A stretch of 64,000 bases of DNA from Synechococcus sp. CC9311. GTDB lineage: Bacteria > Cyanobacteriota > Cyanobacteriia > PCC-6307 > Cyanobiaceae. Position 1 is the first letter of the stretch. The number at the start of each line of letters is the position of its first letter. Below the pieces are notes generated by a model. It was not told where the DNA came from. It ran no database searches and was given only the letters and a program-made list of their open reading frames with translations. The stretch is taken from assembly GCF_000014585.1 (NCBI RefSeq), contig NC_008319.1, forward strand, positions 2,418,001 through 2,482,000. The letters are read 5' to 3'. This document shows, one piece after another, positions 9,698 through 64,000 of this stretch. A program made the position numbers and the translations under genes.

Positions 9698-12600
9698 TCA
9701 GTTTTCAGAAGTATCTGGCAAAGAGTGTTTAAACCAACGTGCTTCCAAACCTTTGATAAAAACATAGACAGAAGGGACCACACCTAAAGAAAGAATGGTT
9801 CCCACGAGAAGGCCGCCGAACACAACCGTGCCAATCGACTGCTGAGCATTTGCTCCTGCATTCCTTGCAACCACGAGGGGCAAGAAACCTGCCAAAGAAG
9901 CAATGGATGTCATTAGAATCGGGCGTAATCTAGATTTTGCAGCTTCGAGAGCTGCTTGAGCCGCCTCCAAGCCATTAGCCATACCCTGATCAGCAAATTC
10001 AACAACAAGAATGGCATTCTTTGCAGCAAGGCCAATCAGCATGAGCAAGCCCACCTGAGAAAATATATTAATATCCATAGACCTCATTTTAACAAAAACC
10101 AGACTTCCCAATATGGCAAGAGGAACAGTTAATAAAATCGTAGTAGACGTAATATAGCTTTCATACGTTGCAGACAAAATCAAAAACACTGCCAAACCAG
10201 CCAAGGCAAACAACATCAAAATCTGACCACCGGACTCAACCTGTGTTCGAGCTAGGCCATCAAATTCATAATCAAGATTCTTGAAATCACTTTCAGCAAA
10301 TATTTTCTCAAGGCGACTAATTACTTGGCCTTGCGAAAATCCAGCCTTAGGCTGAATCGAGAATCTAACTGAACGATTAAAACTGAAATGATCGATTGAT
10401 GGAGGAGCGCTAATTAATTCAGCTTCCGCAAATTGTCTTATTTTAACCATCTCACCGGTCGTCTCTGACTTCACGGAATAATTCAAAAGATCATCAATTT
10501 CGCGCCTCCCTCTTGAATCACTAATGATTTGAACGTCTTTAACACCACCACTGATTGATGTTTGATTCACTCTAGAACCGCCTGCTAGTTCAAGCAAAAC
10601 ACTCATCGCTTTATCAAAATCAACCCCAAGGGAAGAAAGCTTAGAACGATTAATCGTCAACTCATAAGCAGGAGAGTCCGGAGCAAATGTCGTAATAATA
10701 CTGGCAATCGAGGAATCTTTTTGAGCCGATTCTCGGAAGCGTTGGGCAAACTCATTTAATTCTTCAAACGTGTAGGACCTATTACTTCTATCAACAAGCA
10801 ACATATTAATCGAAGAATTTTGTGCAACATTAATCATGGGTGGCTGAAAAAGCTGTGGCGGGAAGGCAGTTGGCAAAGATGATAATTTTGCTCCAAGAGC
10901 TAGCTGCTGTGCATCTGCACCTTGCAATTTCAGAGGACGATCCTCAAGAGGTTTAAGAGAGGCAAAAACCGTAATACTTTCCGTGCTGCCTGAACCAGCT
11001 ATGACAACTGCATTGTCAATAGCAGAGTCTTTCGATTGCTGATCTTTTTGCAAAATAGACGCAGCCTGCTCAGCAACCTTTGCAGTTGCTGGGAGAGATG
11101 AACCTGAAGTTAACTGCATTGAACCAACCAAGATATTCGTATCTTCTTGAGGGATCAAACCTGTTGGAGTTGAGTTGAACAAGAAGAACGTGATCATGAA
11201 AGCGGGAACCAAGCACGCAGAGACAACAACATAATTTTGAATCAAATACTTCAAAACCACTGCAAACCTATTTTCAAGAGCGCTATACAAAGATTCAAAC
11301 GCCTGGAAAACCTTAGTTAAATAGAAGCCAGCAACTCCAAAGAAAGCAATCGCTATTGGTACAATCAGATCTCCAAAGTTTGCACGAGTGAACATGCCAA
11401 ATAGAGCACCAACTATTAATCCCCCTATTCCAGTCACCCATTTAGATGCAGTTTTTTGATCTCCAGGAAGCAGTATCAAACCCGCCATCATTGGCGAAAA
11501 TGTTAAAGCATTAAATGTAGATATTGCAATCGCAAAAATAATCGTAACGGCAAACTGCTGATAAATCTTTCCAACAGATGAAGCAACCAAAGTCACTGGC
11601 AGAAACAAAGTGATCAAGACCAGAGATGTAGAAACGACAGCACCAGAAAGCTCATTCATGGTGGAGATTGCGGCTTGTTTTGGAGACATACCTGCCTCCA
11701 TATTCTTGGCCACAGACTCAACCACCAAGATCGCATCATCCACCACCAAACCAGTGGCAAGAACAAGCCCCGTCAAGGTCAAAAAGTTCAAAGTAAAACC
11801 AAACAAACCTAGAAACAGAAAAGTGCCAACAATGGCCACTGGAATAGCCAAAGCAGGAATCAATACTGTTCGCCACTTTTTCAGAAACAATACAAGCGTT
11901 ACCAAGACCAAAATGACGGCCAACCCAAGGGCATCAGTTACATTTTCAATGGAATCTAAGATGAAAGATTTTTGGTTCTGCATCTGCACAACCTCAATGC
12001 CTGGAGGGGCTATTTTTTTAAAATCATCAACAACCCTCTCTATACCTCTAGCAACCTGTACAGCATTACTGCCAGATTTCTGATTTATATTGATATAGCT
12101 TGCAGGGTAACCATTTAAGGTCTTCAAGGAGAAAGTTGGGTCTGAAATGTATTCAACCTTACCGATGTCCTTCAAACGAATCAGTGCACCGGATGGAGAT
12201 GTTCTCACCGCAAGATTTTCAAATTCCTCTACTGTCTGAATATATCCACCGTCTTTAACCAGTACAGGATAAGAGTAGGAAGCATCATCACTCAAATAGG
12301 GTGCTCCGACACTACCGGCTGATGATGGGGAATTTTGTGATATTATTTTTTGCGAAACTTCTTTAGCTGTGAGATCATAGGATTTAAGCAAATCGGGGTC
12401 CAGAAACACCTGAAATCGAGAATCTGCTGGATAAATAGTGACCGTACCTACACCATTAATGAGTTGAATCTGCTTCTTCAAATTATCTTCGATCAAAGTC
12501 GCAAGATATGCTGAATCATATTGTCCTTGATCAGATGTAATCATATAACCGCTAAGGGTAGTGTCGGTAGATTGGCTAACACTCACACCTTGATCTTGCG

Positions 12601-12967
12601 TAACCTGTGGCAGGTTTTGCAACCCTTTTTGAATGCGATTTTGCGCATCCAACATGGCCGTATCCGCAGAGGTTTCCGGCGCCAAATACATCTGTATGGT
12701 ACTGGAATTTGAAGTTGAACTAGAGATTAAGTAATCAACACCAGGAGTATCGGAGAGTAAATCCTCTAATTGATCAGTGACTGATTTCTCGACAATGCTG
12801 GCATTTCCACCAGGATAATTAGCAGAAATTCGTATTTGAGATGGTGCAACATCTGGCACAAATTCAATTGGCAGCGTTTGAACAAAAACCAAGCCAGCAA
12901 TAAAAATTGCGATGCTACAAACACTCGTAAGAACGGGTCTTTTTATAAAAGGATCAGCAAATGACAT
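9698..12967 (-). CDS. RND-family (HAE1/AcrB-like) efflux transporter
   Basis: 1089 aa from ATG 12967 (MSFADPFIKRPVLTSV, the typical start of this family). A longer in-frame start at 13015 would overlap the upstream adaptor gene. Inner-membrane proton-driven pump: TM1 near residues 10-30, periplasmic domain with PNYPGG-like porter motif, TM4 segment GLVLATGLVVDDAILVVES with the two Asp of proton relay, and TM10 segment GLAAKNAILVVEFA with the conserved Lys. Length fits the family. It forms a two-gene operon with the membrane-fusion lipoprotein just upstream. No outer-membrane channel gene is present nearby, so it must use one encoded elsewhere. Codon use is AT-richer than alaS and its neighbours. 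Substrate unknown. Confidence 0.95.
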   Translation of the reverse strand: MSFADPFIKRPVLTSVCSIAIFIAGLVFVQTLPIEFVPDVAPSQIRISANYPGGNASIVEKSVTDQLEDLLSDTPGVDYLISSSTSNSSTIQMYLAPETSADTAMLDAQNRIQKGLQNLPQVTQDQGVSVSQSTDTTLSGYMITSDQGQYDSAYLATLIEDNLKKQIQLINGVGTVTIYPADSRFQVFLDPDLLKSYDLTAKEVSQKIISQNSPSSAGSVGAPYLSDDASYSYPVLVKDGGYIQTVEEFENLAVRTSPSGALIRLKDIGKVEYISDPTFSLKTLNGYPASYININQKSGSNAVQVARGIERVVDDFKKIAPPGIEVVQMQNQKSFILDSIENVTDALGLAVILVLVTLVLFLKKWRTVLIPALAIPVAIVGTFLFLGLFGFTLNFLTLTGLVLATGLVVDDAILVVESVAKNMEAGMSPKQAAISTMNELSGAVVSTSLVLITLFLPVTLVASSVGKIYQQFAVTIIFAIAISTFNALTFSPMMAGLILLPGDQKTASKWVTGIGGLIVGALFGMFTRANFGDLIVPIAIAFFGVAGFYLTKVFQAFESLYSALENRFAVVLKYLIQNYVVVSACLVPAFMITFFLFNSTPTGLIPQEDTNILVGSMQLTSGSSLPATAKVAEQAASILQKDQQSKDSAIDNAVVIAGSGSTESITVFASLKPLEDRPLKLQGADAQQLALGAKLSSLPTAFPPQLFQPPMINVAQNSSINMLLVDRSNRSYTFEELNEFAQRFRESAQKDSSIASIITTFAPDSPAYELTINRSKLSSLGVDFDKAMSVLLELAGGSRVNQTSISGGVKDVQIISDSRGRREIDDLLNYSVKSETTGEMVKIRQFAEAELISAPPSIDHFSFNRSVRFSIQPKAGFSQGQVISRLEKIFAESDFKNLDYEFDGLARTQVESGGQILMLFALAGLAVFLILSATYESYITSTTILLTVPLAILGSLVFVKMRSMDINIFSQVGLLMLIGLAAKNAILVVEFADQGMANGLEAAQAALEAAKSRLRPILMTSIASLAGFLPLVVARNAGANAQQSIGTVVFGGLLVGTILSLGVVPSVYVFIKGLEARWFKHSLPDTSEN

Positions 12968-12971
12968 CGGA

Positions 12972-14141
12972 TCACTTCCCTGGAAGATTTGAGAGAATTT
13001 TGACTGGCATTCCACTACTCAATATTTTGATCTGACTAGTTGCAACCTTGTCGCCAGCCACTAATCCCTTTAGTACAGGAAATTGGTTGTCCTGGAGCTC
13101 TCCTAAAGCAACAGGAGATTCAACAGCAATTAAAGAATTTGGAGGCAATGCCTTCAGCGGTTTACTTTGTTTTTCGTCAAGCTTATTCAAGCCAAGAAAA
13201 GTCTTAACAGGAATCAATTTAAACACAAAAGCTTGTTGTGCTTTCATTGAGATTGCCCCCGTAGGAATGGCAGGCAAGCTGCGTACTCCTGTTTGAATTT
13301 CTACTCGCGACAACTCACCAGGTTTAAGGCCAACCTGTACGTTTGAGAACGAAGCCTGAACTGTCAATGTATTCAATGGACTACCAGAATCACCTTCAAT
13401 TTTATAATCTAAAAAAGGAGCAACATAATCAACTTGCCCCTCAGCAAGAGCGAAATCCGACCCCGCCGAATAGATACGCGTGGCTTGGCCCAATTGAATA
13501 GATTTTGCCTGACCTGACGGCACATTCATAGACACAAAAAGCTCATCATTATTAACAAGGCTCATAATCTGATCTCCTTGATTTACATAAGTGCCAACAT
13601 TGACGATAAAGCCAGATCCAACAACGCCATCAAAGGGTGCTTTGATATATCGGTAGCTCAATTGAACCTCCTTTTCAATGGCCGTATTAGCCGCAGCAAT
13701 TGCGCCAACTTTTTTTTCTTCAGCATCTTCACGCGAAGCAGCACCTTGATCTGCTAACAATTTATATCGAGCAGATTCAATCTTTGCTTCCTGCGCTTTG
13801 GCCCTAGCAGTATCCAGAGCTGCAGCCTCTTTTTTATGATCTAAAACCAGCATAACCTGTCCCTTCTGGACCTTTTGACCAGCCTTAATCAATACTTGAG
13901 TAACGATTCCGCTTTCCGAGGGTTTGAATGGAACATAATTATTATCTCCTATAATTCCTTCAGCATTCACCACCTGTCTAAAGTTATTTTTCACAATCGT
14001 ATCCGCATAAAGAGGCAAGGGCTGAGGCGCTTTTGATTGAGCACCACAGCCAACGATTAAAAAACCAAATGAAAGACAAAGTAGGCGCAAAGGATATTGT
14101 TTGTTAGAAGCTTGTCTTGGCGATTGAAGCCGCAAAATCAT
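12972..14141 (-). CDS. RND efflux membrane-fusion protein, lipoprotein
   Basis: 389 aa from ATG 14141 (a GTG lies one codon upstream). The lipobox LIVGC places the lipidated Cys at residue 32, so this is a periplasmic adaptor anchored in the inner membrane. Family features include a biotinyl-lipoyl-like beta domain (GIVTQVLIKAGQKVQKGQVMLVLD), an alpha-helical hairpin rich in Ala/Glu/Lys (about residues 95-155), then FDGVVGSGFIVNVGTYV and a beta-barrel domain. It bridges the pump to an outer-membrane channel. It ends 4 bp before the RND pump start, so the two are co-transcribed. Confidence 0.93.
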   Translation of the reverse strand: MILRLQSPRQASNKQYPLRLLCLSFGFLIVGCGAQSKAPQPLPLYADTIVKNNFRQVVNAEGIIGDNNYVPFKPSESGIVTQVLIKAGQKVQKGQVMLVLDHKKEAAALDTARAKAQEAKIESARYKLLADQGAASREDAEEKKVGAIAAANTAIEKEVQLSYRYIKAPFDGVVGSGFIVNVGTYVNQGDQIMSLVNNDELFVSMNVPSGQAKSIQLGQATRIYSAGSDFALAEGQVDYVAPFLDYKIEGDSGSPLNTLTVQASFSNVQVGLKPGELSRVEIQTGVRSLPAIPTGAISMKAQQAFVFKLIPVKTFLGLNKLDEKQSKPLKALPPNSLIAVESPVALGELQDNQFPVLKGLVAGDKVATSQIKILSSGMPVKILSNLPGK

Positions 14142-14308
14142 CACATAGCAATTAATCGCAAAACTATAGGGCTCTCACCTGAAAGTTGCATTAGCAATGA
14201 CTGAGAAAGCAACCCCTGCAGAGTGCCTGAGGGTGTCAGGTGCTTTGCTGATCTGTCTTGTATGCAACAGGTAAATGTTTCCTTATTTTCAATCAAGCAA
14301 CACCGGCT

Positions 14309-55405: not shown

Positions 55406-55514
55406 TGGTACAAGCCCATCCGAAGCCACGTTTCCATGCTGACCATTTAGTGGAGAAACGGAGTCATGACCTCTTTTAAGCTAATGATTGGACAACCATC
55501 GAAGAGGTAATGCT

Positions 55515-56777
55515 GTGCAAAGCCTTTTTGCCCTGATCAAAAGCAACAGGTGTCGCATCACTGCCTTTCTGAGCATGTCCTTGCTCGGAAGCTGCGCAAG
55601 CACTGATCGCCAAGATGCAATCGTCTTGCAAGTGGCTCAGGCCAGCAATGAGAATGAACAACAATCCGCCAGTCGATTTCATTCGGAACGGAAGATCAGC
55701 AAGGATTTTCAACAGCAATTAAAAGAAATGCAGCCTGCTATCAAGCTGCATCCCTCGATCTACGCCGCAGAATCACTGGAACAGGAGCTAAAGGTTCGAA
55801 CCAATAGCGGACTGGGTCCAGATCTTGTGATCACAGATAGCAATCAGGCCTTGACCCTTCTTGCGGAAGGCACCACCATCCCGATCCAACTGACGGAAGA
55901 AAAGCGATTATTAATATCCCCCTCAGCTCTGGAGCGCGTTAAAACCGCCAACGGAACTCTTGCCGGGCAACCAGTCTCTCAATATTTGCAGCTGGCATGC
56001 TTTGACAAACGCAAGCTGAAAGAGCCGCCAAAAACGCTGACGGAATTGTCGGCAGCCAGTGGCAGGGGAAAAGTTTTTGGAATGGTCACCAATCTCCAGG
56101 ATCTCTACTGGAGCCTGGGCAGCTTTGGTGCCGGAGAGGCCTTAGCCACCTCGTTAGCAGGCAAAAAAGCCACCGTTGCAGCCCATGAACGACTCACCCA
56201 ATGGATGCGATGGCTCAAGGCATCCAGCTATCAGCAAAATATTGTGTTTTTGAGAAATCAAGCCGCGCTTCGAAAAGCACTCATCGAAGGAGAGATGAGT
56301 TGGATCAGCTGTTGGAGCTCCCAACTACCTCAACTGCGTGAAGCGCTCAAAGATCATCTCGGAGTCGCGCCATTGCCCAGTGGAGACTTTGGACGAGCCA
56401 CACCAATCACTCGCTTGCAGGTCTGGGCTCTTGGTAAAAATTCAAGCAAACGTCAACGAGCAGAAAGTCTGAGATTGCTCAATTTCATAGCGCAGCCCTG
56501 GGCTCAGAAAACCTTTGCTCTCAAATACAAAACGGGCTATCCAGTCAATCCTGCAGCGGCACTGATCGTCAGAAAACAATTATCTGCCGAGTTTGAAAAG
56601 TTCAATGAAGAAGAAAACGAGCGTGTGAGCCGCGGTGACGCCATTATCTCCGCAATCGACACCAGGCCGATACTAGAAAAAGATATTCAGTCAACACTTA
56701 ACCAGTTGATTTTCGATGGATTATCTCCCGAGAAAGCAGCCACTGAACTCCAAACCCAGATCAAAGACAAGCGATGA
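55515..56777 (+). CDS. Solute-binding lipoprotein paired with MscS channel, cassette 1
   Basis: 420 aa from GTG 55515 (GAGG 7 nt upstream). Lipobox LLGSC with Cys27, so lipid-anchored and periplasm-facing. The body follows the extracellular solute-binding protein pattern (LGPDLVITDSNQALTLLAEG, PPKTLTELSAASG, GVAPLPSGDFGRATPITRLQVWALG, ALKYKTGYPVNPAAA). Cys162 and Cys266 have counterparts at nearly the same spacing in the paralogue at 62037, suggesting a disulfide. No ABC permease or ATPase is adjacent. The stop overlaps the MscS gene start (ATGA). Confidence 0.82.
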   Translation: MQSLFALIKSNRCRITAFLSMSLLGSCASTDRQDAIVLQVAQASNENEQQSASRFHSERKISKDFQQQLKEMQPAIKLHPSIYAAESLEQELKVRTNSGLGPDLVITDSNQALTLLAEGTTIPIQLTEEKRLLISPSALERVKTANGTLAGQPVSQYLQLACFDKRKLKEPPKTLTELSAASGRGKVFGMVTNLQDLYWSLGSFGAGEALATSLAGKKATVAAHERLTQWMRWLKASSYQQNIVFLRNQAALRKALIEGEMSWISCWSSQLPQLREALKDHLGVAPLPSGDFGRATPITRLQVWALGKNSSKRQRAESLRLLNFIAQPWAQKTFALKYKTGYPVNPAAALIVRKQLSAEFEKFNEEENERVSRGDAIISAIDTRPILEKDIQSTLNQLIFDGLSPEKAATELQTQIKDKR

Positions 56778-58144
56778 CTTTGCCTATCTCCTACCTCATC
56801 ACCATCGGCCCTGGGCCCATTTTTAACGAGCTACTGAGCTGGTTGGTCTATCTCAACCGGGGCACTGTTCTTCTTCAATTAGTTTTGGTTGGCGTTGTGA
56901 TGGTCGCGGAACAACGCGGTGCACTTCGAAGGGGCGTGAGACACAGGCTGGTTCCTGAATACATCCGAGTGCTGATCGGCCCTCTACTCCTCTTAATCAG
57001 TTCAGCACTATTTCTCCTGGTGGGCTTGCCATGGGGATTACTGCGTTACTTCGGCCTACTCTGGCTGGGTTGGATGTCATTTACACCTCTAAAAACGTTA
57101 CTTCTAAGCATCAACAAAAAATTTCCAGTTGATGAATTAGAAAGCACATTCCTAAGACCCATTTACGTTATCGTAGCCTCCCTGTCTTTTGTCAGGTTGA
57201 TGGGAAGTACGGAAAATCTGTCGCAAACTCCTATCGCCAATCTGTTTGGAGTAGAGCTTACTCTTGGCAGAATTTACCTCGCTGTAATCGCGATTTACGT
57301 CATAATCACCCTGGCGTCTAGGCCTGCAACCTTTTTAGCTTGGCTCAGCGGGGTTTTGTTTGGAGTCCGACCTCGCAATAGAAGAGGTCTAGAGCTGTTA
57401 TTCCGCTATAGCGTGATCATCGTTGGGGTCATCGCAGTTGCTTACTACATCGGTATCGACGGCACAGCCTTTATCGCCATTGCTGGCGGACTCTCTGTAG
57501 GAATCGGCTTCGGCATCAAGGAAATCGTCTCAAACTTCATTAGCGGCATCTGGCTGTTGTTTGAGGGTTCAGTGCGGCCGGGTGAAATTTTAATGATCAA
57601 TGGTGACCCTTGCACAGTGCGAAATCTTAGGCTGAGAGCCACGCAACTCAGACGAGGACGCGATGGAGCCGAGCTGTTAATTCCCAATCAAACTTTCTTC
57701 ACAACAGAAGCAACATCCTTCACTCAAACCGAAACATCAAGACGCGAGAGTGTACTTGTTGGCGCCGCCTACGAGCACGACCCAGACATTGTCATTGAAA
57801 TATTAGAAGAGATCGCTAAGTCTCACAAAAAGGTTCTCGATTATCCAGACGTGAGAGCATTCATGATCGATTTTGCTGATTCTTCGATCAACTACAAAGT
57901 AGCGTTCTGGGTTGCCAATCCTCTTGATTCATATGATGTAGCCAGTGATATACGTAGAACAATCTGGAAGCGATTCGAGAAGGAGGGAATCACCATTCCG
58001 TTCCCACAACGTCAGGTGTATCCAATGGAATGGCCACCAAGCCTTCAACAAAGCCTGCACTCAGCTGGAGACGGAGGTGTAGTGCCGCAAGGCATACAAC
58101 CAGAACTGACGGGCAGCGAAGAAAAACCCAACAGCGAGACCTAA
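56774..58144 (+). CDS. MscS-family channel, cassette 1
   Basis: 456 aa with several N-terminal spans, then the MscS core. The pore helix and following segment read IAIAGGLSVGIGFGIKEIVSNFISGIWLLFEGSVRPGEIL. The beta domain has LRATQLRRGRDGAELLIPNQTFFT. The alpha-beta domain ends KRFEKEGITIPFPQRQVYP. MscS proteins open under membrane tension or ligands. Coupling to a solute-binding lipoprotein by ATGA overlap suggests that binding could influence gating. That is inference. The longer N-terminal region (residues ~1-200) is beyond the MscS core. Confidence 0.92.
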   Translation: MTLPISYLITIGPGPIFNELLSWLVYLNRGTVLLQLVLVGVVMVAEQRGALRRGVRHRLVPEYIRVLIGPLLLLISSALFLLVGLPWGLLRYFGLLWLGWMSFTPLKTLLLSINKKFPVDELESTFLRPIYVIVASLSFVRLMGSTENLSQTPIANLFGVELTLGRIYLAVIAIYVIITLASRPATFLAWLSGVLFGVRPRNRRGLELLFRYSVIIVGVIAVAYYIGIDGTAFIAIAGGLSVGIGFGIKEIVSNFISGIWLLFEGSVRPGEILMINGDPCTVRNLRLRATQLRRGRDGAELLIPNQTFFTTEATSFTQTETSRRESVLVGAAYEHDPDIVIEILEEIAKSHKKVLDYPDVRAFMIDFADSSINYKVAFWVANPLDSYDVASDIRRTIWKRFEKEGITIPFPQRQVYPMEWPPSLQQSLHSAGDGGVVPQGIQPELTGSEEKPNSET

Positions 58145-58849
58145 CCCTAGCCAGAGCATGGGGGCGCTAGCCCGCCCCAGCACGACTTCAGCCGGAACAG
58201 TCGTAAGAAATGCCACTGGAATTACCAAAGTGAAGAGCAAGCGCAAGGGAGCTGGATAGGCCGCTACGGGATAGCGACCAGATGCCAACACAGCCCGCAA
58301 AACTTCTGTGGCATTCCAGGTTTTCACAAACCAAATACTGGTCGCGGCAATTAAAAACCAAAGTGAATACAGGATCAATCCACCAGCCAAGAGCATCACC
58401 AACACCACCGCAATGCCTCCGGGTGTCAAAGAAGCACCAGCCTGATGCCCGCCCCAAATCACCAATAAAAAGCCAAGAACAATCTCAGGTAACCCTGCTG
58501 GCGAGATGGTCCGCAATGACAACCAGAACTGACTATCAATCGGCTTCAGCAGTACAAAATCAAGCGTTCCTTCACGCACATGGGTCACGATCGAAGACAG
58601 GTTGGGGCGTAACCAGGTGCTGGCCACCCCATCGAGAACCGTATAAAAGCCCTGAACAATCAAGGCTTCGTGCCAACTCCACCCACCCAACTCACGGCCT
58701 GGTCCAAAAAAGAGAGAGAGCATGAACAGGCTGCCTAGCAAGCTCAAGCCAACCGCAATCAACTCAATCACAACATTGAATTGATACTCCAACTGTGAGG
58801 CCACGGCTGTTCCCCAAAATCGCCGGAGACTTTTGAAATAACGCCCCAT
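58061..58849 (-). CDS. ABC-2 type exporter permease (DUF990-like)
   Basis: 262 aa with six hydrophobic segments. It begins MGRYFKSLRRFWGTAVASQLEYQFNV and carries LIVQGFYTVLDGVASTWLRPNLSSIVTHVREGTLDFVLLKPIDSQF, a strong marker of the ABC-2 permease pair encoded with the ATPase below. Its 3' end overlaps the end of the convergent MscS gene by 84 bp, which is a long overlap. Substrate unknown. Confidence 0.9.
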   Translation of the reverse strand: MGRYFKSLRRFWGTAVASQLEYQFNVVIELIAVGLSLLGSLFMLSLFFGPGRELGGWSWHEALIVQGFYTVLDGVASTWLRPNLSSIVTHVREGTLDFVLLKPIDSQFWLSLRTISPAGLPEIVLGFLLVIWGGHQAGASLTPGGIAVVLVMLLAGGLILYSLWFLIAATSIWFVKTWNATEVLRAVLASGRYPVAAYPAPLRLLFTLVIPVAFLTTVPAEVVLGRASAPMLWLGLGLAVGFFFAARQFWLYALRHYTSVSS

Positions 58850-59647
58850 TTAGGCCCCCATTGCGCTGTAACGCCGAACCCCAGCGCGCCAAAGCAGAAG
58901 GACAAGCGGCAAAAGCAGCACAATCCAGGCCAACTGGATTGCGAATCCAGCCAACAAGTCAACAGGTTGTTCCGCTAAAACACGCGCCGGAAAGTCAATC
59001 AGATAGGGGAAGGGCGTCCACTGAGCCAACGCACGAACGAGGGGTGGGAATGCCGTGAGAGGAGCAAGCAGCCCAGACAGAAAAAGGAAGGGAATGAACA
59101 ACAACCTCTCCAGAGCACTGGCCTTCTCACTCCAAAAGCAAAGAGAAGCAATCAGGCTTTGCAACAGAAAAGCAATCGAGAAGGCCATCCATGTGGCCAA
59201 CCAAGCCAGCACAAAGTGACCCAACGATGGCAACCAAAAGGCCTTGGGCTGAATCAGAAAGAAAATCGCGGTGATGGCCGCAGCAAAAGGCAAACGCGTG
59301 AGCTGCTCGCCGAGATGACTGGCGACATAACGCCAGAGCGGGTGGAGTGGCTGAAGAAGATATGGAGACAATCTGCCAGTAAGAGCATCCTCTTCAAAGG
59401 CGTAAACCATCCAAACAACAGAAAACTGACGCACCAAAAAGGCACTCAAAAAATAACGATCAAGCCCTACACCATCCATCCCCAACACACCGCGAGCATC
59501 ACTACCATTCCAAAGGCTGAGCATGATGAAAGGGAGAACACCCGAAAGAGCCCAAAGGGCAATTTCGGCTCGATATTCCAACATATGGGCGTATTCCGTG
59601 CCCAATAAAACTCGAACAATCTTGCGATTCAATCCAAAAATCCGCAT
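58850..59647 (-). CDS. ABC-2 type exporter permease, second subunit
   Basis: 265 aa, six spans: YAHMLEYRAEIALWALSGVLPFIMLSLW and QFSVVWMVYAFEEDALTGRLSPYLLQPLHPLWRYVASHLGEQLTRLPF. Paired with the subunit at 58061 and the ATPase at 59647, the usual three-gene order of these exporters. It overlaps the ATPase stop by 1 bp. Confidence 0.9.
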   Translation of the reverse strand: MRIFGLNRKIVRVLLGTEYAHMLEYRAEIALWALSGVLPFIMLSLWNGSDARGVLGMDGVGLDRYFLSAFLVRQFSVVWMVYAFEEDALTGRLSPYLLQPLHPLWRYVASHLGEQLTRLPFAAAITAIFFLIQPKAFWLPSLGHFVLAWLATWMAFSIAFLLQSLIASLCFWSEKASALERLLFIPFLFLSGLLAPLTAFPPLVRALAQWTPFPYLIDFPARVLAEQPVDLLAGFAIQLAWIVLLLPLVLLLWRAGVRRYSAMGA

Positions 59648-60621
59648 TAAAAACTTCCCTGGCGAAACAGATCACCGATCAGCTGGTCAATCGGGGGATC
59701 ATTCACCTCCAGATCACGCACTTCAAAGCGTTCCAACAGTTGTGCCACCACGGCAGTGAGCTCACCAGGCTGTACTCGCAAGTTCACCTCGCAGTCGCAA
59801 CAACTGTCGAGCTGGCCAAGGCCAGCAAACGCCTCAGCCCCAACGGGTACAGCAAGTTCGAGGCGAACATGGCGCTCGGGAGCAAGCCGACTTGCCAAGC
59901 GATCAAGCGGGCCATCATGGAACAAATGTCCCTGATGAATCAACAACACACGCGGACATAAGGCCGTGATATCAGCCATGTAATGACTCGTGAGCAACAC
60001 GGTCGCACCGGTTCGTCGGTTGTAGTCCGCTAAAAACTCCCGCACTTTGGCCTGAGCATTCACATCCAATCCAAGGGTGGGCTCATCAAGGAACAACACC
60101 TCAGGCTGATGAAGCAAAGCCGCGAGCAGCTCGGCTTTCATGCGCTGGCCCAACGACAACTTGCGAACAGGACGCGTGAGCTCTTCTCCCAACTCCAACA
60201 AATCCGACAGCTCGGAAATACGGCGATTGGCATCCCGATCTTTAATGCCGTACACCGCAGCATTCACCCTCAAGGAATCCATCGGTGGCAGATCCCACAG
60301 CAACTGCTGCTTCTGCCCCATCACTAACGTGATCCGACGCAAAAAATCTGGATGACGCTTTTGCGGTTGATGACCTGCAACGACAACCTGACCCGCACTG
60401 GGATAGATCAAGCCACACAACATTTTCAAGGTGGTGGTTTTCCCGGCGCCATTGGCACCAAGAAATCCAACCATCTCCCCCGGTTCAATGGCAAAGGAAA
60501 CGTCTCGTACCGCGGACACATCGCGATAACGACGATTCACAAAATGCTGAAGGGTGCCAGACAGGCCAGGCTGCTTATCAGCAACCCGATAGATCTTGCT
60601 CAGCTGTTCAACCGTGATCAG
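59647..60621 (-). CDS. ABC exporter ATPase (start codon unusual)
   Basis: Complete nucleotide-binding domain: Walker A GANGAGKTT, Q-loop, signature LSLGQRMKAELLAALLHQPEVLFLDEPTLGLD, switch His in LLTSHY. The family N-terminus ITVEQLSKIYRVADKQPGLSGTLQHF lies upstream of the first GTG (60540). In frame with it there is no ATG, GTG or TTG before an upstream stop. The CTG at 60621 would give MITVEQLSKIY. An ATG at 60643 in another frame would need a 1-nt shift to reach it. So this is a CTG start or a small frameshift. The protein energises export with the two permeases. Confidence 0.85.
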   Translation of the reverse strand: MITVEQLSKIYRVADKQPGLSGTLQHFVNRRYRDVSAVRDVSFAIEPGEMVGFLGANGAGKTTTLKMLCGLIYPSAGQVVVAGHQPQKRHPDFLRRITLVMGQKQQLLWDLPPMDSLRVNAAVYGIKDRDANRRISELSDLLELGEELTRPVRKLSLGQRMKAELLAALLHQPEVLFLDEPTLGLDVNAQAKVREFLADYNRRTGATVLLTSHYMADITALCPRVLLIHQGHLFHDGPLDRLASRLAPERHVRLELAVPVGAEAFAGLGQLDSCCDCEVNLRVQPGELTAVVAQLLERFEVRDLEVNDPPIDQLIGDLFRQGSF

Positions 60622-60643
60622 TGAAGATGAAGGGTTCAGCCAT

Positions 60644-60984
60644 CACACCAGACTCTATGAGAAGAGTAGAAGGTTCAAACCTATATCCGCAAAATCTGAA
60701 ATTGATTCCAGTCAAGATGGAATCTGCACGACTAAGCTCAGGCATTACAAACATCGTTCCATGGTGGCAAAAAGAGGCTGATACAGAACAATCCGAGAGA
60801 ACAAGGCCTAAAGCATTAAACAACCATTGGCAGCCCATCCATATGTCAAAACAAACAAATCAATGCCATAAACTGTATCCAAATAGCGCAGACAAGACCA
60901 ATGAATTGCCCCAAGGTTGACCCCATAAGTACAAGATAATTTAGAATCCTAAAATTCAGAGAACCGAAGTCCTAGTCAACCAAG
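60644..60984. other. Intergenic region between ABC exporter and kinase-like gene
   Basis: About 340 bp, no gene that I can support. It contains a perfect inverted repeat GATTCCA-N7-TGGAATC at 60704-60724, without a T-run. AT-rich, as is the kinase-like gene that follows. Confidence 0.45.
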
Positions 60985-61944
60985 ATGACAAGCCAACCAA
61001 TCAACAAAGAGCTTCTCAAGTTTATTCATGAGCAAACTGGGAGGACCATGATCTATGAGCAGGAACCCACACCCTTACTAGGCGGAATAGATGCGGCTAC
61101 TTATAGATTTAAACTTAGAGGGATGGACACGATGGTCCTCCGCCTCCTTGGAAAAGACAGAAGCGCGGAGGAGGTGAAACGATTCCGAATTCATAGCCGA
61201 GTTCTCATTCACGCAAACATCAAAGCACCAAAGGTGTACTGGGTCGGCGAAGACAAATTAGTCCTAGGAGGGGTTTTTATAATTATGGAATTCTTCCCAG
61301 ACCCACTTCTAGCAGAACAGCCAAAAGACATACAGCTCAAAACCCTGGGGGAATCTCATGCAGAGATGCACAATCTGTCAACGACACAAATCATCAGCGA
61401 ATTAAAAAAACAAGGGCTGAATGAAAAGCATTTCATGGCCACTCTATCTATTCCAATTATTCTAGACACAGCGCACAGAGATCATCCCTGGCTAAGCAAT
61501 ATATTCAATTGGCTACAAAATAACTTACCAATCAATTCAGCCCATGCATCCATCAATCACGGCGACTATCATCCCAAAAACATTATGTACGCTTCAGAGC
61601 ATGTTACAGGCATCATTGACTGGAATTTCTTTATAGGTGATCCAGCATTTGATGTCGGGCATACAATCACACTCATCATGGACATTGGACCCAATATTGG
61701 GGATGGGTATACGTTGGACATAGCCTCACAATGCAACGAGCAGTATCAAGATGCGTATCAATCAACAAGATCAATTAATGAGAATGCAGTTAGTGCTTGC
61801 AGGGTCTCGGAATGCACGAGATTTCTTCTTCATTGCCTCTCAGGTAAAAAAGATATCATTGCTTCCTCTCCCACCATGATCAAAAGCCTCGCAACCACTA
61901 TCGAAAACATCACCAACTTGGAAATAGCATTTCCTGACCAGTAA
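60985..61944 (+). CDS. APH-fold phosphotransferase (aminoglycoside/choline kinase-like)
   Basis: 319 aa. Kinase-like fold with catalytic loop INHGDYHPKNIMY (His and Asp near residue 192, Asn downstream) and metal-binding IIDWNFFIGDPAFDVGH. The N-terminal lobe has FRIHSRVLIHANIKAPKVYW and a hinge GGVFIIMEFF. Members phosphorylate aminoglycosides, macrolides, choline or other small molecules. The substrate is not determinable, and antibiotic resistance is not implied. It is AT-rich compared with the core genes, hinting at acquisition. No coupled neighbour. Confidence 0.85.
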   Translation: MTSQPINKELLKFIHEQTGRTMIYEQEPTPLLGGIDAATYRFKLRGMDTMVLRLLGKDRSAEEVKRFRIHSRVLIHANIKAPKVYWVGEDKLVLGGVFIIMEFFPDPLLAEQPKDIQLKTLGESHAEMHNLSTTQIISELKKQGLNEKHFMATLSIPIILDTAHRDHPWLSNIFNWLQNNLPINSAHASINHGDYHPKNIMYASEHVTGIIDWNFFIGDPAFDVGHTITLIMDIGPNIGDGYTLDIASQCNEQYQDAYQSTRSINENAVSACRVSECTRFLLHCLSGKKDIIASSPTMIKSLATTIENITNLEIAFPDQ

Positions 61945-62036
61945 AAAGCAAAATCGCCATGCAACAGAACTGCACACTCATGCGACAAACTAAACTCCCG
62001 TCTACAACGACAAGCATCATCAAATACGATTAGCCA

Positions 62037-63305
62037 ATGCTACACAAAATCCCTGGCATGCCAACAAGAGCTGGATTAATCAACACCATCACAACCGCAA
62101 CAACGTTGCTGACGATGTTGCTCTCCGGTTGCTCATCAGCTAACAAGCCAGCTCATACCCTCTATATCGCCTATCCAATTCCAGACAACGAATTCACACA
62201 GTCCTCAATAGAACAAAGAGAAAAGCTGATAAGCCTTTTTAATCAGCTATTCCTCAAAACAAATCCCAACACGCGTGTTGTCACTGTTGCCTACAAATCC
62301 AATACAATGATACGTCAGATCAAGGAAGACAGCAAGCTAAACCTTGGCCCAGACTTAATCATAAGCACAAATTCACATCTACGATATTTTAATCAAGACT
62401 CGCTGTTGAGTACCTTTCCCAACAACTCTCAGTGGACGCAACAGTACGACGATGTCATCAAAAACATGTCCATTGTCGACAACAAACTTCTCTTAGCTCC
62501 CGCTATAATCTTCCCTCAAGTTTCCTGTTACAACAACAAGACCGTAAAACAGTCACCAAAAACGATCCAAGAACTGGTGAAGCTTGGTGCAAGCGGAGTT
62601 CGCATTGGCTTAGCAACGAATCCCTCTCAGATCTTCTGGACGGCTGGATCGACCGGTGCAATCACAGAAATCAGCTCACTGGTAAACAAGAAAAATCAGA
62701 ATAAACCAAAGCCAAAAATCAAAGAATGGATCACATGGCTACGCCAAGCGGCTTACTACCAAAACATTTCCTTTTACAGCCAGCAATCTGAACTTATCAA
62801 TGAATTGGCCGCCAATAATCTTGACTGGATCACCTGCGATTCTTTCCAAGCCTCTGCCATAAAAGAGAAAATGGGAGAACAGCTCAGCATTGCCACCCTT
62901 CCAGATGGAGTTGAAACAAAAGCTTTTGCATGGCCATTAGTCTTTGGTTTTGGACTAGGCACTGATTCAAGCCCCACACAAAGGGCGCTCGCACTGAGTT
63001 ATGTGAAAACAAACACCAATGTTGTAGGACAAAGGCAAGTGATGCTGCGCACTGAAGGATTCCTTCCTACGAACCAGGCTGTTGATATTCCGAATCGAAG
63101 CTCACAAACTCTCAAAGCCTACAACCATTCTTGGCACACACAATCACGAAGCTATCTCAAGGAGTGGCCCATGATCATTCAATACTTAGCAACATCCAAG
63201 AACTACCTAGCAATCGATCAAATATTAACCGAACTCACCAGTGGAAATATCAGCGTTGACGGCGCAGTGCAGGCCTTAACCAACTTGAGAAAAAAAGGAA
63301 AGTAA
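62037..63305 (+). CDS. Solute-binding lipoprotein paired with MscS channel, cassette 2
   Basis: 422 aa. Signal with a strong lipobox LLSGC (Cys32). Paralogue of the lipoprotein at 55515: shared LGPDLII, SPKTIQEL, YYQNISF and WITC patterns, and Cys164 and Cys267 at nearly the same spacing as Cys162 and Cys266 there. Lys/Asn-rich composition and low GC compared with cassette 1. Its stop (TAA) overlaps the next ATG by 1 bp (TAATG). No ABC transporter partner is nearby. Confidence 0.82.
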   Translation: MLHKIPGMPTRAGLINTITTATTLLTMLLSGCSSANKPAHTLYIAYPIPDNEFTQSSIEQREKLISLFNQLFLKTNPNTRVVTVAYKSNTMIRQIKEDSKLNLGPDLIISTNSHLRYFNQDSLLSTFPNNSQWTQQYDDVIKNMSIVDNKLLLAPAIIFPQVSCYNNKTVKQSPKTIQELVKLGASGVRIGLATNPSQIFWTAGSTGAITEISSLVNKKNQNKPKPKIKEWITWLRQAAYYQNISFYSQQSELINELAANNLDWITCDSFQASAIKEKMGEQLSIATLPDGVETKAFAWPLVFGFGLGTDSSPTQRALALSYVKTNTNVVGQRQVMLRTEGFLPTNQAVDIPNRSSQTLKAYNHSWHTQSRSYLKEWPMIIQYLATSKNYLAIDQILTELTSGNISVDGAVQALTNLRKKGK

Positions 63306-64000
63306 TGAACAATCTTCTCTTCGAGGTTTCATCCTGGACTGGATACATTGGTCGAGCAGCAGTTAGTTGGCAGTTGATCTTGATTGCCTGCACACTAATC
63401 ACTGATGCATTCATTCGCAAAAAGCTGGGAACAAAAAATGTTTCACTCTTAACATCTCAGACCGTAAGTCCTCTTGCGCTACTTGGCATCAGCATTGTGC
63501 TTTGGGTAGCCTCCATTCCCACAGGAATCGCGATCCGCTTTGGATTGATCTGGGCAGCATGGAACATTCTTTTATGGATCGAACAGAAACTGATCCAACG
63601 CAACCCGAAGGATCGAAGAGCGCTCTGGCTCAGGCGCCTAGTGCGTCCTGCCATCCTTGTTTTTGCACTGCTTTACTGCATCGAGCGACTCAGCAGTCTC
63701 TCATCCATTGGTCTGATTAATGTGGGCACATTGCTGAATACCCAACTGGCGCTAGGCAAACTTTTTTACTCCGTAATCGGCCTCTATCTAATTCTGATTG
63801 CCAGCGCCCCGATCGCATTCCTCATCTCATGGATCTCAAAAGAAGGCCTGAAAATCAGCAATCAAAGTCGTCATGCGATTGAAATCATCGTTCGTTATTT
63901 AATCATCAGTTTTGGCCTCCTGGCTGTAGCCCTTCAGGCTGGTTTTAACGCAACAGCGTTACTGACCATTTCAGCAGGTTTGTCCGTTGGTCTTGGTTTT
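63305..64000 (+). CDS. MscS-family channel, cassette 2 (partial, runs off window)
   Basis: First 232 aa. Begins MNNLLFEVSSWTGYIGRAAV, several hydrophobic spans, and at the window edge reaches LLTISAGLSVGLGF, matching the pore region AIAGGLSVGIGF of the channel at 56774. That places the MscS pore at the same relative position (about 225 of ~450). The C-terminal half is beyond the window. Overlaps the lipoprotein stop as TAATG. Confidence 0.88.
   Translation, partial: MNNLLFEVSSWTGYIGRAAVSWQLILIACTLITDAFIRKKLGTKNVSLLTSQTVSPLALLGISIVLWVASIPTGIAIRFGLIWAAWNILLWIEQKLIQRNPKDRRALWLRRLVRPAILVFALLYCIERLSSLSSIGLINVGTLLNTQLALGKLFYSVIGLYLILIASAPIAFLISWISKEGLKISNQSRHAIEIIVRYLIISFGLLAVALQAGFNATALLTISAGLSVGLGF

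Follow-up and report, generated by a model that had tools for sequence, protein, structure and literature searches.

What might a solute-binding lipoprotein do when its gene is joined to that of a channel, and no importer stands beside it? The question is raised by a 64,000-nucleotide stretch of Synechococcus sp. CC9311 (contig NC_008319.1, positions 2,418,001 to 2,482,000; hereafter, the window), where a gene for a solute-binding protein (SBP) twice overlaps a gene for a channel of the MscS family. Our results confirm that the two genes form a robust unit, one that recurs in several cyanobacterial families and of which we found no description in the open-licence literature. Our best reading, which we consider somewhat more probable than its negation, is a two-gene MscS channel regulated by an SBP, an in-trans analogue of the cyanobacterial channel GluR0 in which contact between the partners, a ligand and an effect on gating would all be involved. 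The four genes are as follows.

Positions 55515 to 56777, forward strand: SBP1, a solute-binding lipoprotein with a predicted MalE fold, lipobox LGSC and Cys171/Cys275 (numbered from TTG 55488), assigned from sequence, Pfam and a model.
Positions 56774 to 58144, forward strand: MscS1, an MscS-family channel of 456 amino acids whose start overlaps the SBP1 stop (ATGA), assigned from Pfam.
Positions 62037 to 63305, forward strand: SBP2, a lipoprotein paralogous to SBP1, with lipobox LSGC and Cys164/Cys267, assigned from Pfam and sequence search.
Positions 63305 to 64000 (clipped at the window end), forward strand: MscS2, an MscS-family channel whose start overlaps the SBP2 stop (TAATG), assigned from Pfam.

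A preliminary description of the window had proposed two paralogous lipoprotein–channel pairs with overlapping junctions, a Cys pair at near-equal spacing in the lipoproteins and no importer components, and each of these points held. In pair 1, the MscS1 ATG at 56774 lies within the stop region of SBP1 (TGA, 56775-56777; GTG 55515 is a possible start, with an in-frame TTG at 55488), while in pair 2 the TAA of SBP2 ends at 63305, where the MscS2 ATG begins; MscS2 is complete beyond the window, at 424 amino acids (locus L006, 9306-10580). The SBP1 query recovers SBP2 at 7.9e-33 in a sequence search, and the two Cys are 104 residues apart in SBP1 and 103 in SBP2. Translations of the window revealed no importer permease or ATPase gene beside either pair; between them, on the minus strand, lie three ATP-binding cassette (ABC) genes (58061-60540) whose translations, read by eye only, resemble an ABC-2 exporter. 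Across the 2.6-Mb genome there are five PF00924 matches and two SBP genes of this family, such that two MscS channels are paired with an SBP and three are unpaired.

The pairing proved to be conserved well beyond this genome. When SBP1, MscS1 and SBP2 served as queries against 60 genomes, the window's own plus 59 relatives, SBP1 matches occurred in 32, namely, its own, 28 of 30 relatives of the same genus, 3 of 6 of the same family and 0 of 23 of other families. The 61 matches represent 60 genes, one being broken in two (genome G030), and an MscS gene lies directly downstream on the same strand in 59; the 60th (L075) has only about 280 bp left before its contig ends, and hence all 59 assessable genes are paired. 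The gap between partners is -4 bp in 52 cases, -1 in 2, +5 in 3, +8 in 1 and 208 in 1, the last at the broken gene. An SBP profile was then scanned across 386 genomes of the phylum, with at most four candidates scored per genome, so that members may be missed. Matches at E<=0.001 were found in 167 of these genomes and were mostly ordinary SBPs. The family was separated from these by the Cys pair and by score, with no intact member below 182.6 bits and no non-member above 113.8. This left 56 family rows, reaching other cyanobacterial families, with an MscS gene behind every one (three fragments of one broken gene were counted once, and L138 and L139 were counted by eye); 17 are common to the 60-genome set, and the other 39 comprise 38 intact genes and one broken. 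Finally, a non-exhaustive search of named loci, using patterns from the non-Cyanobiaceae subset and returning no Cyanobiaceae, found 24 of 25 cyanobacterial loci to be paired, in Microcystis, Chroococcus, Geminocystis, Snowella, Planktothrix, Crocosphaera, Xenococcus and a member of the Pseudanabaenales, among others; the remaining locus (L170, Leptolyngbyaceae) is clipped by the end of its contig. Its genomes partly overlap those of the 386-genome scan, and the counts are not additive. The ten non-cyanobacterial matches of this search were weak (83 bits or less), and no MscS match was found in their stretches.

The converse relationship, from channel to SBP, was equally strict. We built a channel profile from a diverse set of 21 paired channels and used it to scan 292 genomes of the phylum, scoring at most five candidates per genome, such that an unpaired channel may be missed. 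All 40 of the best matches (at least 316 bits, in 32 genomes) have a family SBP directly upstream, and the next match (234 bits) covers only positions 168-436, the pore region. Among the candidates scored in these 292 genomes, the channel subfamily, recognised by its N-terminal half, was never seen without its SBP. The co-occurrence check called for in the preliminary description thus passed in both directions (59 of 60 SBP genes and 40 of 40 channels), and the SBP–MscS linkage is conserved and mutually exclusive within cyanobacteria.

The two partners also appear to have evolved together. For 57 pairs from 30 genomes (the 59 pairs less L072, which is broken, and L049, in which the channel is cut), SBP and MscS distances correlate at 0.94, whereas 2000 shuffles of partners within the 19 multi-pair genomes gave 0.19 on average and never more than 0.498. 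Clusterings of the two proteins agree exactly at three, four and six groups and at 0.974 for five, and the ratio of nonsynonymous to synonymous substitution rates ranges from 0.06 to 0.34 in eight comparisons. These results support the view that the partners evolve as fixed pairs, both under purifying selection, and therefore that they constitute one functional unit, a part of the earlier interpretation that stands. An opposing explanation is that they are mere neighbours, hitchhiking in an inherited block with no joint function. Block inheritance and duplication do account for part of the congruence; nevertheless, the pairing survives at SBP identities of about 20-40%, though other neighbours vary between loci, and it is exclusive in both directions, which makes hitchhiking extremely unlikely in our judgment.

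By fold and by Pfam family, the binding protein belongs with the MalE-type SBPs. SBP1 matches PF13416 (6.4e-21; 75.8 bits, cut-off 27), while SBP2 matches only PF01547 and falls just below its cut-off (3e-5; 24.6 bits, cut-off 26). Structures were predicted as single chains for SBP1 and MscS1. The SBP1 model (predicted local distance difference test, pLDDT, 85.8) retrieves MalX with Foldseek at 1.6e-17 and, with VIA, Thermotoga maritima MalE3 (6dtq_A) at Z 36.0, with a root-mean-square deviation (rmsd) of 3.4 over 361 aligned residues at 17% identity, the next rows being tied within 1. Since this is the fold of the sugar SBPs of ABC importers, the protein could instead leave the gate alone and capture solute that escapes through the channel, passing it to an ABC importer, such as one of the Ggt type, whose genes lie at another site. 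A Ggt-like importer is ubiquitous in marine and brackish picocyanobacteria, according to the accessible part of PMC9361551. However, the adjacent permease and ATPase genes that mark an importer SBP are missing beside the window pairs (a permease may be encoded at another site), all 56 family rows are linked to a channel, and such release and recapture leaves unexplained why the channel subfamily was never seen without an SBP. We regard it as unlikely.

The family carries a mark of its own in the form of two Cys, found in all 55 Cyanobiaceae SBPs and all 21 diverse SBPs compared (the two sets share three rows), where ordinary SBPs (n=16) have Y/F and D/N/S/I. In a wider set, in which some genomes are counted twice, the pair is present in 64 of 64 channel-linked members versus 0 of 16 ordinary SBPs. 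Here, a distance rule had left three true members among 19 unpaired proteins, and these were reassigned on inspection: the MscS frame as called begins within the SBP gene for L138 and L139, and L170 ends at the contig edge. Exactly three Cys occur in 15 of the 21 diverse members, the pair plus one more, usually that of the lipobox. Judged from these sequences, the Cys pair is a signature of channel-linked SBPs among those compared, and it may have a disulfide or redox role. It aligns to two C-lobe strands of MalE, at positions that we take, from the alignment, to be I116 and N227. Three family SBPs (L118, 4567-5820; L128, 4533-5783; L129, 4401-5735) have no lipobox Cys close to their hydrophobic N-terminal segment and are presumably anchored by a membrane helix rather than by lipid.

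This conservation pattern also bears on whether the SBP fold still binds anything, or has lost its ligand and been retained as a subunit for the structure or assembly of the channel. Apart from Met1, the diverse set has nine invariant residues, all within 161-306, which we take as the C-lobe, and the alignment to MalE shows no conservation of the residues through which the MalE N-lobe contacts sugar; both observations fit a structural subunit. Against it, the invariant Trp208 and Trp239 lie with the Cys pair in the C-lobe range and suggest a retained pocket, and the SBPs of the genome's own pairs 1 and 2 have diverged more than their channels (26% versus 45% identity), as would be expected were ligands changing. 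A purely structural role thus seems to us quite unlikely.

The channels themselves are secure members of the MscS superfamily, as both contain its beta-domain and C-terminal domain (PF00924 at 41.9 bits in MscS1 and 34.3 in MscS2, cut-off 20.2; PF21082 at 58.7 and 49.5 bits, cut-off 21). A structure search with the MscS1 model does not separate MscS from MscK, whose rows are tied at Z 16.2 and 15.6 with large rmsd values of 9 to 13 A, and so supports the family assignment only. Across 54 aligned channels, Lys plus Arg average 4.1 to 5.3 per sequence in segments 44-67, 98-130 and 186-212 versus 1.2 to 1.3 in 1-31 and 137-162, and a diverse channel set shows the same trend more weakly. Together with hydropathy and a low-confidence model, this suggests about seven transmembrane segments in MscS1, with the N-terminus outside.

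Pores of the MscS type are wide, show weak selectivity and lack any energy coupling. On these general grounds, osmolyte uptake, which the earlier interpretation had entertained alongside release, is unlikely because the pore has no means of coupling energy to it. The same knowledge bears on the idea of an SBP-dependent passive conduit, in which the SBP would give the channel a substrate preference and so create a facilitated pathway for one solute. The exclusive partnership of SBP and channel is in keeping with such a conduit, but a weakly selective pore of this kind would give no uptake against a gradient, and we rate this idea as very unlikely.

How, then, might the two proteins work together? 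In the SBP-regulated channel that we favour, the lipoprotein would be a periplasmic SBP anchored on the outside of the inner membrane, where it would serve as a separate regulatory subunit of the neighbouring MscS-type channel. It would dock on the periplasmic side of the channel, at residues 1-31 of the N-terminus and the loop 137-162 in MscS1, and its docking would change as a ligand, probably a small sugar-like solute, binds or leaves, perhaps also with the redox state of the Cys pair; the membrane tension needed for opening would shift accordingly. Docking and control of gating by ligand state are suggested by the position of a presumably tethered SBP beside a channel whose N-terminus and loop are seemingly periplasmic. 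A ligand-sensing channel is the likeliest mechanism that we can predict; the sugar-binding fold prompts the guess that its ligand is an osmolyte. The most specific version, a ligand- and redox-modulated mechanosensitive channel made of two genes, in which a tethered maltose-type SBP controls an MscS pore from outside, is offered only tentatively.

Several observations weigh against this proposal. Outside Cyanobiaceae, the genes frequently do not overlap (in L113, L114 and L117, for example, they are 12, 13 and 138 bp apart), and translational coupling is therefore not general. In two genomes, a broken SBP gene precedes an open MscS frame (L072, 1820-3104; L130, 4100-5345), perhaps through early loss of the sensor or an assembly error. 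Many cyanobacteria lack the family, among them two near-complete genomes of the same genus (G023 and G027) and, in the 386-genome scan, all eleven listed genomes of genus g31. SBP and channel point to the same pair as nearest relative in only 43 of the 57 cases, and block duplication alone could yield most of the tree congruence. The MscS1 model is weak (pLDDT 73.8; predicted template modelling score 0.47), and the unconserved N-lobe contacts, discussed above, count here as well.

Other features of the region merit brief mention. An APH-family gene (60985-61944) lies between the two pairs, and the 3' ends of MscS1 and the last exporter-like ABC gene are convergent, overlapping by 84 bp (58061-58144). 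Beyond the window end (about 65.0-68.3 kb when numbered as in the window), the gene of a PhnD-like lipoprotein (L006, 11000-11899; PF12974, 3.7e-39) overlaps a GGDEF-EAL gene (11896-14280) by 4 bp, a further instance in which a binding protein is coupled with a gene for something other than a transporter; this lipoprotein occurs in 4 of the 60 genomes, its GGDEF-EAL neighbour having been checked in the own genome and G014 only. In two genomes, short frames resembling valyl-tRNA synthetase (89%, 70% and 95% identity; L006, 14889-15200; L066, 13803-14207 and 14254-14568) precede a third MscS gene and are perhaps partial duplicates of the nearby synthetase gene.

The preliminary description knew of no system of this type, and our own search of the open-licence PubMed Central (PMC) literature likewise found no account of an SBP–MscS pair, or of a separate SBP gene as an MscS partner. 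The MscS superfamily includes subfamilies with added ligand-binding domains, and picocyanobacteria have 24 MscS types with a salinity-linked distribution, as described in the accessible parts of PMC4560390 and PMC9361551, respectively; the latter part does not mention pairing with an SBP. Nor does an SBP partner of MscS appear in the available sections of PMC9948718, PMC7522525, PMC2874817, PMC12903740, PMC3170327 and PMC4560390, and PMC2950845 contains no match to the terms searched.

MscS channels are mostly regarded as passive safety valves. If the SBP-regulated channel is real, a dedicated outside sensor would let some cells tune solute release to their surroundings, and SBPs would gain a new class of partner, a channel. 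Because the unit occurs in picocyanobacterial relatives and in the bloom formers Microcystis and Planktothrix, it may affect survival of osmotic shifts and the solutes released. It is also small and open to direct test.

Set beside known systems, the unit resembles parts of several. With the MalE-type SBPs of ABC importers, it shares the fold, the SBP Pfam families and the lipobox, but its SBPs are linked to MscS and not to permeases. MscK is the nearest solved sequence to the channels (205.6 bits, profile A4) and shares PF00924 and PF21082; however, MscK has 1120 amino acids versus about 450 here, its large N-terminal part is absent, and a separate SBP gene is linked instead. Channels of the family reach only 134-173 bits against the NCBIfam MscK model (equivalog cut-off 991), and those of the window (133.7 and 146.6) match over only about 250 C-terminal residues, which places them outside MscK proper. 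In the bacterial cyclic nucleotide-gated (bCNG) channels, the cyclic-nucleotide domain is cytoplasmic and in the same chain as the pore. They are likewise MscS-family pores with a ligand sensor (named, with references, in the accessible part of PMC4560390); unlike them, neither MscS1 nor MscS2 contains such a domain (Pfam, E up to 0.1).

The closest parallel in principle is GluR0, in which the binding domain is fused to a pore of the K+-channel type. A fusion of SBP and channel after this fashion is rejected for the present system: the window has separate genes, and, from a sample of twelve stretches with long cyanobacterial MscS proteins, none of the ten scanned by Pfam has an SBP domain, while the other two (L194 and L195), searched with in-house profiles only, gave no SBP match. 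Five of those ten (L187, L189, L190, L191 and L193) have a C-terminal DEP domain, an unusual cytoplasmic addition. GluR0, a glutamate-receptor channel of cyanobacteria, has a role in cell volume under KCl stress, according to the accessible part of PMC13099474. Like GluR0 and the ionotropic glutamate receptors, the window system would couple a periplasmic or extracellular binding-protein fold to a channel; unlike them, it would do so with a separate lipoprotein and an MscS-family pore. If our reading is correct, the glutamate-receptor principle of a binding domain on a channel has here been assembled in trans, on an unrelated pore.

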